A DNA stretch of 64,000 nucleotides from Eubacteriales bacterium mix99. GTDB taxonomy: Bacteria > Bacillota > Clostridia > Caldicoprobacterales > DTU083. The DNA lies in contig CP121690.1 in NCBI GenBank assembly GCA_038396605.1, positions 2,140,500 to 2,204,499 of the forward strand, read 5' to 3'. Position numbers and translations under genes: made by a program. The notes below the pieces were generated by a model that saw nothing but the letters and a program-made list of their open reading frames with translations, searched no databases and had not been told where the DNA came from. Shown piece by piece: positions 5,953-55,360 of the stretch (the stretch's first letter is position 1; each line of letters starts with the position of its first letter).

Positions 5953-6028
5953 AGTCAGGTCGTCCGGGACGGACATGGGATGATGGAAGAATATGACAGA
6001 CGAATAAACTGGAGTCAGGTCGTCCGGG
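5952..6028. repeat. 17-bp direct repeat, two copies 60 bp apart
   Basis: GAGTCAGGTCGTCCGGG occurs at 5952-5968, starting on the last base of the OYE stop codon, and again at 6012-6028. The gap between the OYE and LacI genes holds little else. It may be a local duplication or a paired protein-binding site. Confidence 0.85.
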
Positions 6029-6125
6029 GATGGGTGGAGCAAATAGATAAACAGGGCAGAGGAAGCAGACAGATAAATAAGGCAGAGAAAGCAGAACAGG
6101 AAGCATGGAAAAAGGGAACGGTCAG

Positions 6126-7172
6126 ATGATTACCATAAAGGATGTGGCAAGGGTCGCCGGAGTATCCGCCAGCACGGTCTCCAGGGCGCTCAGCGGGAGA
6201 ACTCCGGTGGAGGAATCCACCCGGAGAAAAGTGCTGGAAGCAGCCCAAAAGCTGAATTATCAGCCAAATGCACTGGCAAAGGGACTGAAGGAAGGCCGGA
6301 CCGGGACCATCGGCCTGATCGTTCCCAATATTTGCAATCCGGTGTTTCCGCTGGTCTCCAGGGGGGTGGAAGATACCGCCAGGAAGTTCGGATATACGGT
6401 GATATTATGCAATACCGATGAAGATGTGAACATTGAAATGGAATACATTCAGAAACTGCGGAAGAAATGGGTGGACGGGATCATTCTGGCCACGTCGGGG
6501 AAGCAGAGCGGGCACATTACGGAATTAAAGGACAGTGGTTTGCCCGTTGTCCTGCTGATCCGCAGGCTGGAGGATCGTGTGGATGCGGTGGTTGTGGATC
6601 ATATCGAAGCGGCGCGGCAAGCGGTTGCCTATCTGATCCGGACCGGTCACAGGAAAATTGCCATGGTAAACGGGGATCAGGGACTGACACTTTACCGGGA
6701 GCGGTTTCAGGGTTATCTGCGAGCATTGCGGGAGTCCGGTCTTGCCTTTGATCCATCCCTTGCTCTGGAGATTCCGGATGTTCAGAATTGTTATGAATCC
6801 GTACTTGAATTTCTTGCAGCCCGGCCTGCACCGGACGCTGTGTTTGCCGCCAGCGATCCCATGGCACTGCAGGTGATGCGGGCTGTGAAGGATGCCGGGT
6901 ACCGGGTTCCGGATGATATTTCGGTGATGGGATTTGACGATCTGGAGTCCGCCCCGTTTCTGGATCCTCCGCTGACCACCGTGCGCCAGCCTTTATATCA
7001 AATGGGGGCAGCTGCCGCGGAGCGGATTATTTCACAGATTGAAGGGAAAGCGTCCACTTCGGAAGAGAGCGCACCGTTTGTACGTGTGATGAATACGGAG
7101 CTCATTGTGAGACAATCGACAAGGGACAGAAAGAATCAATGCATCATGGAATCAGAGAATCGGCATGAATAA
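6126..7172 (+). CDS. LacI-family transcriptional regulator
   Basis: From the ATG at 6126 the protein opens with the standard ITIKDVARVAGVSASTVSRALSG helix-turn-helix region, followed by the hinge (NYQPNALAKGLKEGRTG) and the sensor domain (IGLIVPNI, LIRTGHRKIAMVNGD, FAASDPMALQVMRAV, VMGFDDLESAPF). An in-frame ATG at 6105 would add seven residues, but the HTH normally starts near residue 3, so 6126 is preferred. Length 348 is normal. It lies between the OYE gene and the SDR-FAD-Gfo genes in the same direction, so it probably regulates this cluster, perhaps through the site at 4525. Confidence 0.93.
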   Translation: MITIKDVARVAGVSASTVSRALSGRTPVEESTRRKVLEAAQKLNYQPNALAKGLKEGRTGTIGLIVPNICNPVFPLVSRGVEDTARKFGYTVILCNTDEDVNIEMEYIQKLRKKWVDGIILATSGKQSGHITELKDSGLPVVLLIRRLEDRVDAVVVDHIEAARQAVAYLIRTGHRKIAMVNGDQGLTLYRERFQGYLRALRESGLAFDPSLALEIPDVQNCYESVLEFLAARPAPDAVFAASDPMALQVMRAVKDAGYRVPDDISVMGFDDLESAPFLDPPLTTVRQPLYQMGAAAAERIISQIEGKASTSEESAPFVRVMNTELIVRQSTRDRKNQCIMESENRHE

Positions 7173-47487: not shown

Positions 47488-48690
47488 ATGAAGAGAACAG
47501 TTTTTTTGGTGGATATGAATGCGTTTTTTATCAGCTGCGAGACGACAAAGAATCCGGAGCTGGCGGGACGGCCCGCCGCTGTGGCCGGAGATCCGAAAAA
47601 CCGAAGCGGGATTATCCTGGCAGCCAATTATGAAGCCCGGAAATATGGAGTGAAAACAACCATGCTTCTGCATCGGGCGAGAAAGCTATGTCCGGATATC
47701 CTCCTGGTTCCCCCGGATCATGCCTTTTATGAAAGGAAATCCCGGGAGGTTATGGAACTGTTGTCCCGTTATTCCCCGGTGATTGAGCAGAACAGCATTG
47801 ACGAGGCATGGCTGGATATGACGGGCTGTGAAGCGTTATTCGGTCCCCCACTGGAGTCTTCCCGCCGGATCATGGCGGAAATCCGGAGAAAGCCGGGTCT
47901 GATGTGTTCCATTGGGATTTCGGAAAATAAATTCCTGTCCAAGATGGCTTCCGATATGAAAAAGCCCATGGGTATTACGGAGCTGTGGAAGGAAGATGTC
48001 CCTGAAAAGCTGTGGCCTTTGCCGGTGGGAGCTATGTACGGGGTGGGAACGCAAACGGCGGAAAAGCTGAATGGACTGGGGATTGAAACCATCGGACAGC
48101 TTGCACGCTTCCCGGAGGAGCTTCTGAGGGAGAAATTTGGCAAGGGAGGAACGGAGCTGTACCGGCTGGCCAACGGAATCGATCCGTCGAAGGTGACTCC
48201 CCATGCCGAGCATGAAATGAAATCCATCGGAAGATCCACCACCCTGAGCTCGGATATCCGTGATATCGCAGAAGCCGAGAAAATTCTCTACCGTCTGGCG
48301 GATTCCATCGGCACCTCTGCCAGAAAGCATAAAAAGAAAGGCCGCACCGTGCAGATTACCATAAAGTATTCCGATTTTCATACCATAACCCGGCAGAAAG
48401 GAATCCGTGCCACTTACCTTACGAAGGAGATCTATACAGCCGGTACGGAGCTTTTGCGGCAGAACTGGAACCGGAACAAACCGGTGCGCCTGCTGGGCAT
48501 CAGCATTAGCGGATTTGATGCGGACTCTGCGGCAGATCAGATCTCGCTGTTTGATACACCCGGAGGGGAACAGAATACAAAGCAGGAAAAGCTGGAGAGG
48601 ACAGTGGACCGCATTCGGGAGAAACATGGCGTTTTTGCCATTCGCCCCGCCATATTATTTGATGACAGGGAGGACGAACCGGATACATGA
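47488..48690 (+). CDS. dinB: Y-family DNA polymerase (DinB/Pol IV-like)
   Basis: A 400-residue translesion polymerase. Palm motifs: VFLVDMNAFFISCE (metal-binding Asp) and NSIDEAWLDMTG (Asp-Glu pair). Then come the helix-hairpin-helix thumb (GVGTQTAEKLNGLGIETIGQ) and little-finger domain (TVQITIKYSDFHTITRQ). Residues near 350 read QISLFD, a sliding-clamp-binding motif, so the gene looks functional. GGGGAG lies before the start. No LexA box is visible upstream. Confidence 0.93.
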   Translation: MKRTVFLVDMNAFFISCETTKNPELAGRPAAVAGDPKNRSGIILAANYEARKYGVKTTMLLHRARKLCPDILLVPPDHAFYERKSREVMELLSRYSPVIEQNSIDEAWLDMTGCEALFGPPLESSRRIMAEIRRKPGLMCSIGISENKFLSKMASDMKKPMGITELWKEDVPEKLWPLPVGAMYGVGTQTAEKLNGLGIETIGQLARFPEELLREKFGKGGTELYRLANGIDPSKVTPHAEHEMKSIGRSTTLSSDIRDIAEAEKILYRLADSIGTSARKHKKKGRTVQITIKYSDFHTITRQKGIRATYLTKEIYTAGTELLRQNWNRNKPVRLLGISISGFDADSAADQISLFDTPGGEQNTKQEKLERTVDRIREKHGVFAIRPAILFDDREDEPDT

Positions 48691-48795
48691 ATTCCTTTGG
48701 CTTCTTTTATATTGAAAAATAGGGCTTTTCCGACTTGTCTCCCAACATGTTTTTTCGCCTGTTTTCATAAGATTGTAAAAAGGGGCGTGTGAGAC

Positions 48796-49614
48796 ATGAA
48801 AATAGGATTTGCGCAGACAAAAAGCAGGGAACGGTTTTCGGAAAACCTGGAGGAATGTCTGGACTTCATGACCTTAGCCGGAAAACTGGGAGTGAATCTT
48901 CTTTGCTTCCCGGAGATGCATTTAACGGACTTTTTCCTGTCCCGTGCGGATCATCATTATCCGTTTCAGTATGCGGAAGGGATCCCCGGTCCGACAGTGG
49001 AGCGATTTCAGAAAGCTGCCAGAGAGCAAAAAATGGCAGTCGTCCTGAACTATATGGAACAGTTCAACTATGAATATTACAGCTCCTCTCCCGTCATAGA
49101 CAGTTCCGGCAAGCTATTGGGGGTATCCCGTATGGTACATATTCCCCAGATCATGGGATATTGTGCACAGAGCTACTTTACACCAAGCTGCGGGGATTTT
49201 CAGGTATACAATACGAAATTCGGAAAAGTGGGAGTTCTGGTTTCCTTTGACCGGCATTTTCCGGAAGCGACGCGTGCCCTGACATTGCGGGGAGCTGATA
49301 TTATCCTGATTCCCGGCTTTATCGCGGAAGGACAGGATCCGGATATGTATCGGGCGGAGCTGCGGACCATTGCCTATCAGAATTGTCTGTATGCCGGCAT
49401 GTGCAGCCGTGTGGGAGAGGAGAACGGGACCCGTTTTATTGGAAAGAGCATGCTAGCCGATCCGGATGGGGACATTCTTGTGGAAGGATCCGCGGAATCT
49501 GAACTGGTGGTGGCAGATATTGATCTGGCTGCGGCCCGGCGCCGGCATAAGGAAAACCCCTATCTGACTCTTCGACGGCCGGACGAATATTTATATATTG
49601 TGCGAAACTGCTGA
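48796..49614 (+). CDS. Nitrilase-fold protein lacking catalytic Lys and Cys
   Basis: A 272-residue carbon-nitrogen-hydrolase-fold protein. The fold is well preserved: FPEMHLTDFF, GYCAQSYFTPSCGDFQVYNT, FDRHFPEATRALTLRGADII and NCLYAGMCSRVGEENG. Of the Glu-Lys-Cys triad only Glu40 is kept. Met113 stands where the Lys of the YRKxHIP motif should be (SRMVHIP), and Ser150 replaces the Cys of the ICxDxxFPE motif (VSFDRHFPE). It is therefore probably not an amidase. It may be a regulatory or scaffold pseudoenzyme, or use an unusual chemistry. It lies between dinB and trmL in the same direction. Confidence 0.85.
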   Translation: MKIGFAQTKSRERFSENLEECLDFMTLAGKLGVNLLCFPEMHLTDFFLSRADHHYPFQYAEGIPGPTVERFQKAAREQKMAVVLNYMEQFNYEYYSSSPVIDSSGKLLGVSRMVHIPQIMGYCAQSYFTPSCGDFQVYNTKFGKVGVLVSFDRHFPEATRALTLRGADIILIPGFIAEGQDPDMYRAELRTIAYQNCLYAGMCSRVGEENGTRFIGKSMLADPDGDILVEGSAESELVVADIDLAAARRRHKENPYLTLRRPDEYLYIVRNC

Positions 49615-49731: not shown

Positions 49732-50244
49732 ATGTCATTGAACATTGTATTGGTGGAACCGGAGATTCCACAGAATACCGGCAATATTGCCAGAACATGT
49801 GCAGTAACGGGAGCGGTCCTTCATCTGGTAAAGCCTCTTGGCTTTTCTCTGGAGGATCGCTATTTGAAACGTGTCGGTCTGGATTACTGGCACTTTCTGG
49901 ACATCCGACAGCATGAGTCACTGGACGATTTTTTCAGGGATTATCCTACAGGAGATTTCTATTTTTGCACCACCAAAGGTGAACGTTCCTATACGGAGGT
50001 TTCCTATACGGAAAACAGCTTTCTGTTTTTCGGCAAGGAAACGGCGGGCCTGCCGGAAAACCTGCTGGCTGCCAACTATGATAAGGCCATTCGGATTCCC
50101 ATGATCCCCGGCGCACGGTCCCTGAATCTGTCCAATTCGGTGGCAATTGTTTTGTATGAAGCCATGAGACAGCTTGATTTTACCGGATTGAAGCGGGAAG
50201 GCGCCCTGACCGGGAAAAGCAGCATATGGCATGAGCCGGTATAA
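49732..50244 (+). CDS. trmL: tRNA (cytidine(34)-2'-O)-methyltransferase
   Basis: A 170-residue SPOUT methyltransferase that 2'-O-methylates the wobble base of tRNA-Leu. From the ATG at 49732 it begins LNIVLVEPEIPQNTGNIART, the family signature; then GFSLEDRYLKRVGLDYW, FLFFGKETAGLPENLL and the knot region IPMIPGARSLNLSNSVAIVLYEA, which binds S-adenosylmethionine. Upstream in-frame codons are not conserved. The ribosome site (CGGGA) is weak. Confidence 0.93.
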   Translation: MSLNIVLVEPEIPQNTGNIARTCAVTGAVLHLVKPLGFSLEDRYLKRVGLDYWHFLDIRQHESLDDFFRDYPTGDFYFCTTKGERSYTEVSYTENSFLFFGKETAGLPENLLAANYDKAIRIPMIPGARSLNLSNSVAIVLYEAMRQLDFTGLKREGALTGKSSIWHEPV

Positions 50245-50491: not shown

Positions 50492-51679
50492 ATGAACAAA
50501 AAAACACTGGAAGATGTTCCGGTAAGCGGTAAGAAAGTTCTGGTACGTGTGGATTTCAATGTTCCACTGGATAAAGAGCACAATATCACCGATGATACCA
50601 GAATCCGCGCTGCGCTTCCCACTATCCGGTATTTACTTGATCATAATGCGAAGGTGATTCTGATGTCCCATCTGGGAAGGCCGAAGGGAACCGGCTTTGA
50701 ACCGGATTTCAGCATGGCCCCCGTGGCGAAGCGGCTGAGTGAGCTGTTGGGCATGGAAGTTCATGCGGCGGAGGATGTCATCGGGGACAGTGCAAAATCG
50801 CTGACAGGAAATATACAGGAAGGCGAAGTGGTACTGCTTGAGAATCTTCGCTTCCACAAAGAGGAAAAGAAGAACGATCCCGGATTTGCCAAGGAGCTGG
50901 CAGGGTTTGGGGAGGTTTACATAAATGACGCGTTTGGCACAGCTCACCGCGCGCATGCTTCCACGGAGGGCGTAGCTCATTATCTGCCTGCTGCTGCCGG
51001 GTATCTTATGAAAAAGGAACTGGATATTCTGGGTGCGGCTCTGGACAATCCGGAGCACCCGTTCGTGGCAATTCTGGGCGGCGCCAAGGTTTCCGACAAG
51101 ATCGGCGTGATCCGCAACCTGATCAATAAGGTGGATACCCTGATCATCGGAGGAGGGATGGCTTACACCTTTTTCAGGGCAATGGGTTATGAAATAGGGA
51201 AATCCCTTCTGGAGGAAGACAAGGTTGCATTGGCAGAAGAACTGATGCAGGAAGCAAAGGACAAAAATGTGAAATTGCTGCTCCCTTCCGATACGGTGAT
51301 CGCAGAGGAATTCAGCAATGATGCGAAAAATCGGGTCGTCTCAAGCGATGCCATTCCGGCAGGCTGGCAGGGACTGGATATCGGCCCTGCATCCGGGAAA
51401 GAGTTCGGAAGGGAAATTGAAAAAGCAAAACTGGTGGTTTGGAACGGTCCCATGGGGGTATTTGAAATGCCGGCTTTTGCAAAGGGAACCGAAGCGATTG
51501 CCGATGCCATGAGCCGATGTGACGGGACGACAATTATCGGCGGAGGCGATTCCGCTGCAGCCGTAAAGAAACTGGGCTATGGCGACAAGATGACCCATAT
51601 TTCCACCGGAGGCGGTGCATCCCTGGAGTTCCTGGAAGGCAAGGAGCTGCCCGGTGTTGCGGCACTGAACGATAAATAA
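50492..51679 (+). CDS. pgk: Phosphoglycerate kinase
   Basis: Transfers phosphate from 1,3-bisphosphoglycerate to ADP. Start at 50492 behind AGAAGGAG; 395 residues, the normal length. Signatures: [71 protein letters not shown] and the nucleotide loop [15 protein letters not shown]. First gene of a pgk-tpiA-gpmI-eno operon. The gap gene that usually comes first is absent here. Confidence 0.98.
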
Positions 51680-51693
51680 AGGAGAGTGCGGTT

Positions 51694-52455
51694 ATGAGAA
51701 GACCGATTATCGCAGGAAACTGGAAAATGAACAAGACGCCGGACGAAGCTGCCGCCATGATAAAGGAGCTGGTTTCGCTGGTAAAGGACGCAGAGGCAGA
51801 AGTGGTGATCTGTGCGCCGTTTCCTGACATTGCAGCTTTGAAGAAAGCAGCAGCGGGGACCAATATACGGGTCGGTGCGCAGAACATGCACTGGGAAGAG
51901 TCCGGCGCCTTTACAGGAGAGGTCTCCCCGACCATGCTGAATGCGTTGGGCGTTGAATATGTTATCATCGGGCATTCGGAGAGAAGGCAGTATTTTGCCG
52001 AGACCGATGAGACCGTCAACAGGAAGGTTCATTCTGCCTTTGCCCATCATCTGATCCCGATTATCTGCGTCGGCGAGACATTGTCGCAACGGGAGAAGGG
52101 TGTTACCCGCTCCTGGGTGGAAGGACAGGTGAAAGCTGCGCTGAAGGATCTTTCGGTGAGGGACGTGAAGAAATGTGTCCTGGCTTACGAACCCATCTGG
52201 GCGATCGGAACCGGAAAGACGGCTACCAGCAAGGATGCCAATGAAGTGATCGGATATATCCGGAATACTGTGGCCGGGCTTTATGGAAAGGAAGCAGCGG
52301 ATGCCATACGGATTCAATACGGCGGAAGCATGAAGCCCGCAAATGCCACTGAGCTGATGGCCATGCCGGAAATTGACGGAGGCCTGATCGGCGGTGCCAG
52401 TCTGAAAGCAAAGGACTTTTCCGAAGTTGTCCATTACCGGAAACATGCGGAATAA
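51694..52455 (+). CDS. tpiA: Triosephosphate isomerase
   Basis: Interconverts dihydroxyacetone phosphate and glyceraldehyde-3-phosphate. 253 residues. Signatures: IAGNWKMNK (catalytic Lys), [12 protein letters not shown] (catalytic His), the [14 protein letters not shown] loop (catalytic Glu and mobile loop) and the phosphate-binding [10 protein letters not shown] and [10 protein letters not shown]. Fourteen bases after pgk, with its own GGAGAG site. It also links the glycerol block upstream to glycolysis. Confidence 0.98.
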
Positions 52456-52503
52456 AGTCGGGGGTGCGGGCTTCCTGAGAGAAAAGGAATCGAGGAGGAC
52501 GAT

Positions 52504-55360
<2,857 letters not shown>

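Follow-up and report, generated by a model that had tools for sequence, protein, structure and literature searches.

The described system that best matches the protein discussed here, by sequence, by fold and by NCBIfam model, is N-carbamoylputrescine amidase (AguB or plant CPA), represented by the Medicago enzyme MtCPA (structures 5h8i-5h8l). According to the MtCPA report, its catalytic triad consists of Glu48, Lys121 and Cys158, Lys121 and a backbone amide form the oxyanion hole, and Glu132 adjoins the triad as a second, highly conserved glutamate (PMC4812014). In some members of the superfamily this second glutamate is reported to be essential (PMC6946656). The same MtCPA report describes a C158S variant whose reactivity is strongly diminished and which still binds putrescine (PMC4812014).

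In the window, by which we mean the whole stretch of 64,000 nucleotides that was analyzed, a gene of this superfamily encodes a protein in which three of the four tetrad residues are replaced. The gene and the four positions are as follows.

48796..49614, plus strand: coding sequence of the nitrilase-fold pseudoenzyme, 272 amino acids, identified from the open reading frame, a family search and orthologs.
48913..48915, plus strand: Glu40, the sole tetrad residue kept, codon GAG, aligned to Glu48 of MtCPA.
49132..49134, plus strand: Met113, replacing the catalytic Lys, codon ATG, aligned to Lys121 of MtCPA.
49165..49167, plus strand: Ala124, replacing the second conserved Glu, codon GCA, aligned to Glu132 of MtCPA.
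49243..49245, plus strand: Ser150, replacing the nucleophilic Cys, codon TCC, aligned to Cys158 of MtCPA.

The tetrad was mapped through a phmmer alignment to MtCPA, the closest solved structure by sequence (5h8i/5h8k), and the published numbering was fitted to the chain manually, with an offset of 3. The open reading frame of 272 codons is intact on the plus strand, from an ATG at 48796 to a stop at 49612-49614. Its product is homologous to Pfam CN_hydrolase (PF00795) over the whole domain, with a match spanning residues 3-249 (E 1.7e-44, 152.5 bits against a cut-off of 23.2). The best NCBIfam model is N-carbamoylputrescine amidase TIGR03381, which the protein matches at 148.9 bits, below the equivalog cut-off of 410.25 bits. 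An AlphaFold2 model built from the five available sequences (mean pLDDT 78.8, pTM 0.83) predicts the alpha-beta-beta-alpha fold with a nucleophile elbow and places Ser150 at the elbow position. Compared with solved structures, the model finds MtCPA as its top match (Z 30.4, rmsd 2.7 over 244 residues), and the 50 structure entries among the matches listed range from Z 26.3 to 30.4. The agreement with MtCPA indicates that the fold is kept; together with the CN_hydrolase match it confirms the nitrilase fold that an initial annotation of this DNA had proposed. The loop bearing Ala124 has a pLDDT below 50, so that the placement of this residue rests on the sequence alignment.

Copies of the gene were found in five of the 13 genomes, and three of the nine genera, of the bacterial family (G000, G001, G006, G008 and G009), the four orthologs being 99, 74, 65 and 64% identical to the window protein. 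All five carry the set Glu-Met-Ala-Ser. In place of the Glu-Lys-Cys triad of active nitrilase members the protein has Glu40, Met113 and Ser150, the position of their second conserved Glu is Ala124 in every copy, and, judged by sequence, the catalytic motif of the family is missing. Among 40 aligned relatives from outside the ortholog group, selected for similarity and with near-duplicates among them, the four columns hold Glu in 40/40, Lys in 38/40 (Met in the other two), Glu in 40/40 and Cys in 40/40. The initial annotation had stated that Glu40 is conserved and that Met113 and Ser150 stand in for Lys and Cys. The MtCPA alignment and the five copies agree with it on each of these residues and add a third loss that it had overlooked, that of the second Glu to Ala124. 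The Ala124 codon varies synonymously among the copies (GCA, GCT or GCC); the Ser150 codon is TCC in all five, which leaves no synonymous variation to use there.

Another Lys and Cys in the site had been named in the same annotation as something that could overturn its reading. The invariant Lys (30, 106 and 252) and Cys (37, 132 and 203) of the orthologs lie outside the active-site columns, and by this alignment no displaced Lys or Cys appears to restore the site. Cys37 and Cys203 are also present in L009 and L020, the two relatives with Met at the Lys position, and in the Cys132 column L009, L020, L021, L022 and L026 carry Asn or Asp.

Within the same bacterial family we also observed three more distantly related, NAD+ synthase-like proteins, L077 (G009), L078 (G007) and L074 (G010), in frames of 538-595 amino acids. 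Judged by eye, the N-terminal CN_hydrolase (glutaminase) domain of each has no catalytic Cys, and L074 also has Arg in the columns of the catalytic Glu and Lys. These proteins may use free ammonia. Across the whole superfamily, loss of the Cys is therefore not unique to the window gene.

The loss of the tetrad is accompanied by conservation around it. In five pocket blocks that we picked from motifs (61 positions), 48 positions are invariant in four species, compared with 102/211 elsewhere (p 1.6e-5). In a control with four sets of four full-tetrad relatives, the same blocks have 44, 40, 44 and 34 of 61 positions invariant, and 99, 79, 84 and 73 of 208 are invariant outside them. The pocket blocks of the orthologs are hence at least as well kept as those of presumed active enzymes, in line with the earlier remark that the surroundings of the pocket are preserved; as the blocks are conserved in the control too, part of this conservation may have a structural cause. 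At seventeen positions the orthologs share a residue that none of the 40 relatives has, and seven of these positions fall in the blocks (Met41, Asp45, Ala124, Ser126, Ser150, Gly174 and Ile192). This is no significant excess (p 0.27 when compared with invariant positions and 0.06 when compared with all positions), and the counts do not support a pocket rebuilt by ortholog-specific residues.

The explanation we favor, with somewhat better than even confidence, is that of a selected, non-hydrolytic pseudoenzyme whose old pocket binds a small amide or amine. Its ancestor would have been an enzyme of the N-carbamoylputrescine amidase or carbamoylase-like kind in which, probably in this order, Met replaced the Lys of the oxyanion hole, Ala the second Glu and Ser the nucleophile. 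Lacking Cys and Lys, the protein would have no thioester route and an oxyanion hole devoid of a side-chain donor; lacking the second Glu, it is expected, going by the title of a reference, to misplace a substrate. As its fold and inner pocket are preserved along with Glu40, it would hold a small amide, amine or carbamoyl compound uncleaved and would pass on the bound state via binding or its oligomer state. The idea of a small compound bound uncleaved comes from the tetrad losses taken together with Cys-to-Ser mutants that keep their ligand. Besides the MtCPA variant, these include yeast Nit2 C169S, a structure entry among the fold matches whose title tells of an endogenous peptide-like ligand held by the protein. 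The charge balance of the pocket, which keeps one acid but no longer has the Lys, would point to a ligand that is neutral or cationic. In this proposal, the order of the losses, the lack of hydrolysis, ligand binding and signalling are the parts that we infer. The computed results do not distinguish ligand sensing, the job suggested in the initial annotation, from carrying, scaffolding or a new chemistry. Neither a ligand nor a partner or regulon is indicated, and the neighbour genes point to no clear pathway.

The protein might instead still be an enzyme with altered chemistry, for example an esterase or hydratase, in which Ser150 or a water activated by Glu40 serves as nucleophile and the backbone amide of residue 151 is the only oxyanion-hole donor. 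All five copies share Ser150, Glu40, His115, His154 and Arg153, the sequence surrounding the nucleophile elbow is kept, and pocket blocks as conserved as in full-tetrad relatives would suit a working site; two relatives with Cys but without Lys indicate, moreover, that a Lys-less site can persist. We nevertheless consider this improbable, given that MtCPA C158S is reported as strongly diminished despite its Lys and both Glu (PMC4812014), whereas here Lys and the second Glu are also lost and no substitute Lys or Cys aligns into the site.

A regulatory subunit in mixed oligomers with an active nitrilase-fold paralog, following the prozyme principle, has also been considered. Nitrilase-fold enzymes oligomerize, MtCPA being described as an octamer in which neighbouring subunits wall the active-site entrance (PMC4812014), and the window's own genome encodes L002, a paralog in which Glu, Lys and Cys are present. 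A partner common to all five gene-carrying genomes was, however, not found: among the 17 other CN_hydrolase matches in the family (E 1e-10), inspected by eye, no kind is shared by the five, and G008 has a single such match, of a distant 330-aa type. A regulatory role on a paralog is for this reason not favored, and we regard it as very unlikely.

The surroundings of the gene include the following features on the same strand.

47488..48690, plus strand: upstream neighbour, an open reading frame that is presumably a DNA polymerase IV-like gene, dinB.
48699..48722, plus strand: remnant of a deleted degV 3' end within a scar at 48690-48722, reading GFFYIEK followed by a stop.
49732..50244, plus strand: downstream neighbour, presumably a TrmL-like tRNA methyltransferase gene.

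The trmL gene follows the pseudoenzyme gene in 5/5 genomes that carry the latter, which would accord with a scaffold, chaperone or RNA/protein-binding factor that works through its outer surface and keeps its pocket for stability only. The pocket blocks are structural motifs and are the best-kept part of active relatives as well, and a scaffold role without ligand explains the data nearly as well. Stability alone, on the other hand, would not be expected to fix two buried polar residues, Glu40 and Ser150, and we assign the scaffold a low probability, no higher than that of the regulatory subunit.

The same locus documents that the gene has been retained. In G006, G008 and G009 the order is degV, pseudoenzyme gene, trmL; the G006 degV is assigned as DegV by NCBIfam (264.7 bits) and the copies of G008 and G009 by a tblastn match to a DegV fragment. 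In these three relatives the distance from the end of intact degV to the gene is 74 (G006), 87 and 88 nt, and the remnant in the window ends 73 nt before the start codon; YIEK followed by a stop occurs once in the six frames of the whole window. In all seven relatives that lack the gene and have a trmL match (G002-G005, G007, G010 and G012), an open reading frame that is DegV-like by eye lies directly before trmL, and G011, which is 71% complete, gave no trmL match. Three DegV proteins are encoded elsewhere in the window's own genome. In the window's genus degV is deleted, a scar is left and the pseudoenzyme gene is kept; remnant and intact counterparts together show that this gene outlasted the deletion of the one beside it. 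There is no promoter-like match between 48500 and the start codon, a weak hint that the gene may be transcribed by read-through from upstream.

Further along the window, a 770-aa open frame on the minus strand (51577-53889) runs antisense to genes that we take to be tpiA- and gpmI-like. Its translation matches relatives at the same place, and the frame probably just mirrors conserved coding on the opposite strand.

Selection is also visible in the substitution pattern. The dN/dS ratio (NG86) is 0.031 for the own copy against G001 and 0.057 for G008 against G009, the two pairs used, as dS is saturated between genera. The own and G001 copies are 98.5% identical, compared with 97.0% for enolase, 97.3% for dinB and 93.1% for the ldh open reading frame of the same region. 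Together with the conserved locus, these values indicate a gene kept by selection and not decaying, as had been surmised from the sequence. The initial annotation had also allowed for a sequencing error at both altered codons, and the changes recur in every one of the five copies, including the one at 64% identity. A pseudogene undergoing decay or an error in sequencing, which the loss of catalytic residues taken alone might have suggested, can thus be dismissed on the intact frame, three identical changes in 5/5 copies, dN/dS of 0.03-0.06 and the retention of the gene while the adjoining degV was deleted.

How a selected, non-hydrolytic pseudoenzyme could have arisen was explored through its relatives, which were collected in several scans. 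The order scan found matches at 1e-30 in 6/30 genomes, namely the five and one 30% relative, and a single-sequence scan of a class sample found 4/391 genomes at 1e-35, all orthologs from the five. A profile scan of 398 phylum genomes returned 30 genomes at E 1e-50, among them G744 with the locus L020; a second phylum scan gave eight matches, all of them in the first profile scan, and no new genome. In the class of G744 (15 genomes scanned) only G744 itself matched. Viral contigs held no member of the subfamily and one other nitrilase-fold locus, and plasmids held only relatives below 60% identity, of which the six places fetched all have Lys, Cys and both Glu.

Two of the relatives, L009 (Ignavibacteriae HGW-2; 5992-6813) and L020 (G744; 1501-2313), have Met at the Lys position. 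They resemble the orthologs in this Met and in an MVHI motif at 36-37% identity, but differ from them in retaining Cys and both Glu. With the four catalytic columns left out of the alignment, two trees unite the five copies in one clade (support 100/100 and 100/99), which is the clade sharing both changes that the initial annotation had suggested looking for. They sit in a subfamily of ten rows with L009, L020, L021, L022 and L026 (92/90 and 100/100). L021, L022 and L026 belong to this subfamily with the orthologs, yet possess Glu, Lys, Glu and Cys. Two of these three (context L062-L064) adjoin what we take to be an aminotransferase-like gene, as an amidase might, and presumably permease-like and PrpF-like genes lie near the same two full-tetrad loci. 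This suggests that full-tetrad members of the L021, L022 and L026 type are amidases of transaminase products.

The first tree omitted six near-duplicate rows, and the second omitted these and L010, L036, L042 and L047. A single clade of all Met rows is rejected when L021, L022 and L026 are present (p-AU 0.005 and 0.004) and is recovered at 100/100 once they are left out. The data reject a grouping of the orthologs with L020 (p 0.010) but not one with L009 (p 0.056). All three tree builds gave long-branch warnings, and sampling outside the own phylum was thin, L009 being the sole subfamily locus used from there. According to these tests, either a single origin of Met was followed by a return to Lys in one lineage, or Met has more than one origin. 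Since the state with Met and an intact Cys exists in nature, stepwise loss with Lys first appears the likelier course, though it is not proven. More tentatively, and with less confidence than we place in the pseudoenzyme as such, the lineage may have become a dedicated small-molecule receptor through stepwise loss of catalysis, first of the oxyanion Lys and then of the second Glu and the nucleophile. If so, the relatives with Met and an intact Cys would be surviving intermediates already past normal hydrolysis, and a pocket with a buried Glu40 and no Lys would favor a neutral or cationic amide or amine.

Set beside MtCPA, the orthologs conserve the pocket columns of Glu48, Pro125 and Tyr130 (hand mapping) and differ in the replacement of Lys121, Glu132 and Cys158 in the window protein. 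At the columns of Trp159 and Trp162 the orthologs have Phe/Tyr and His, respectively. The substrate-orienting Glu187 at the entrance of MtCPA, read by hand, does not correspond to a conserved Glu in the orthologs, which makes carbamoylputrescine an unlikely ligand as far as the alignment can tell. Pseudoenzymes have been described in many enzyme families (PMC10211241). A literature search that covered titles and the beginnings of abstracts, with subscription papers mostly outside its scope, found no pseudoenzyme of the nitrilase superfamily among the papers listed. The nearest case there is a poplar gene without the triad, which its authors took for a pseudogene (PMC6196558).

A parallel exists in the pseudoprotease SERA5 of Plasmodium, another organism. 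There a papain-like domain, whose fold differs from that of nitrilases, has Ser where the Cys would be. As in the protein described here, the Cys-to-Ser exchange is natural, and it is reported to go with a non-enzymatic role (PMC4671257). Natural loss of catalytic residues is a known kind of event, and what appears to be new is the triple loss within the nitrilase superfamily together with the existence of half-way relatives. Such a strongly selected case with half-way relatives offers a residue-by-residue test of how a Cys-Glu-Lys hydrolase might turn into a binding protein, and allows one to ask whether the gene is retained when Lys is the first residue to disappear.
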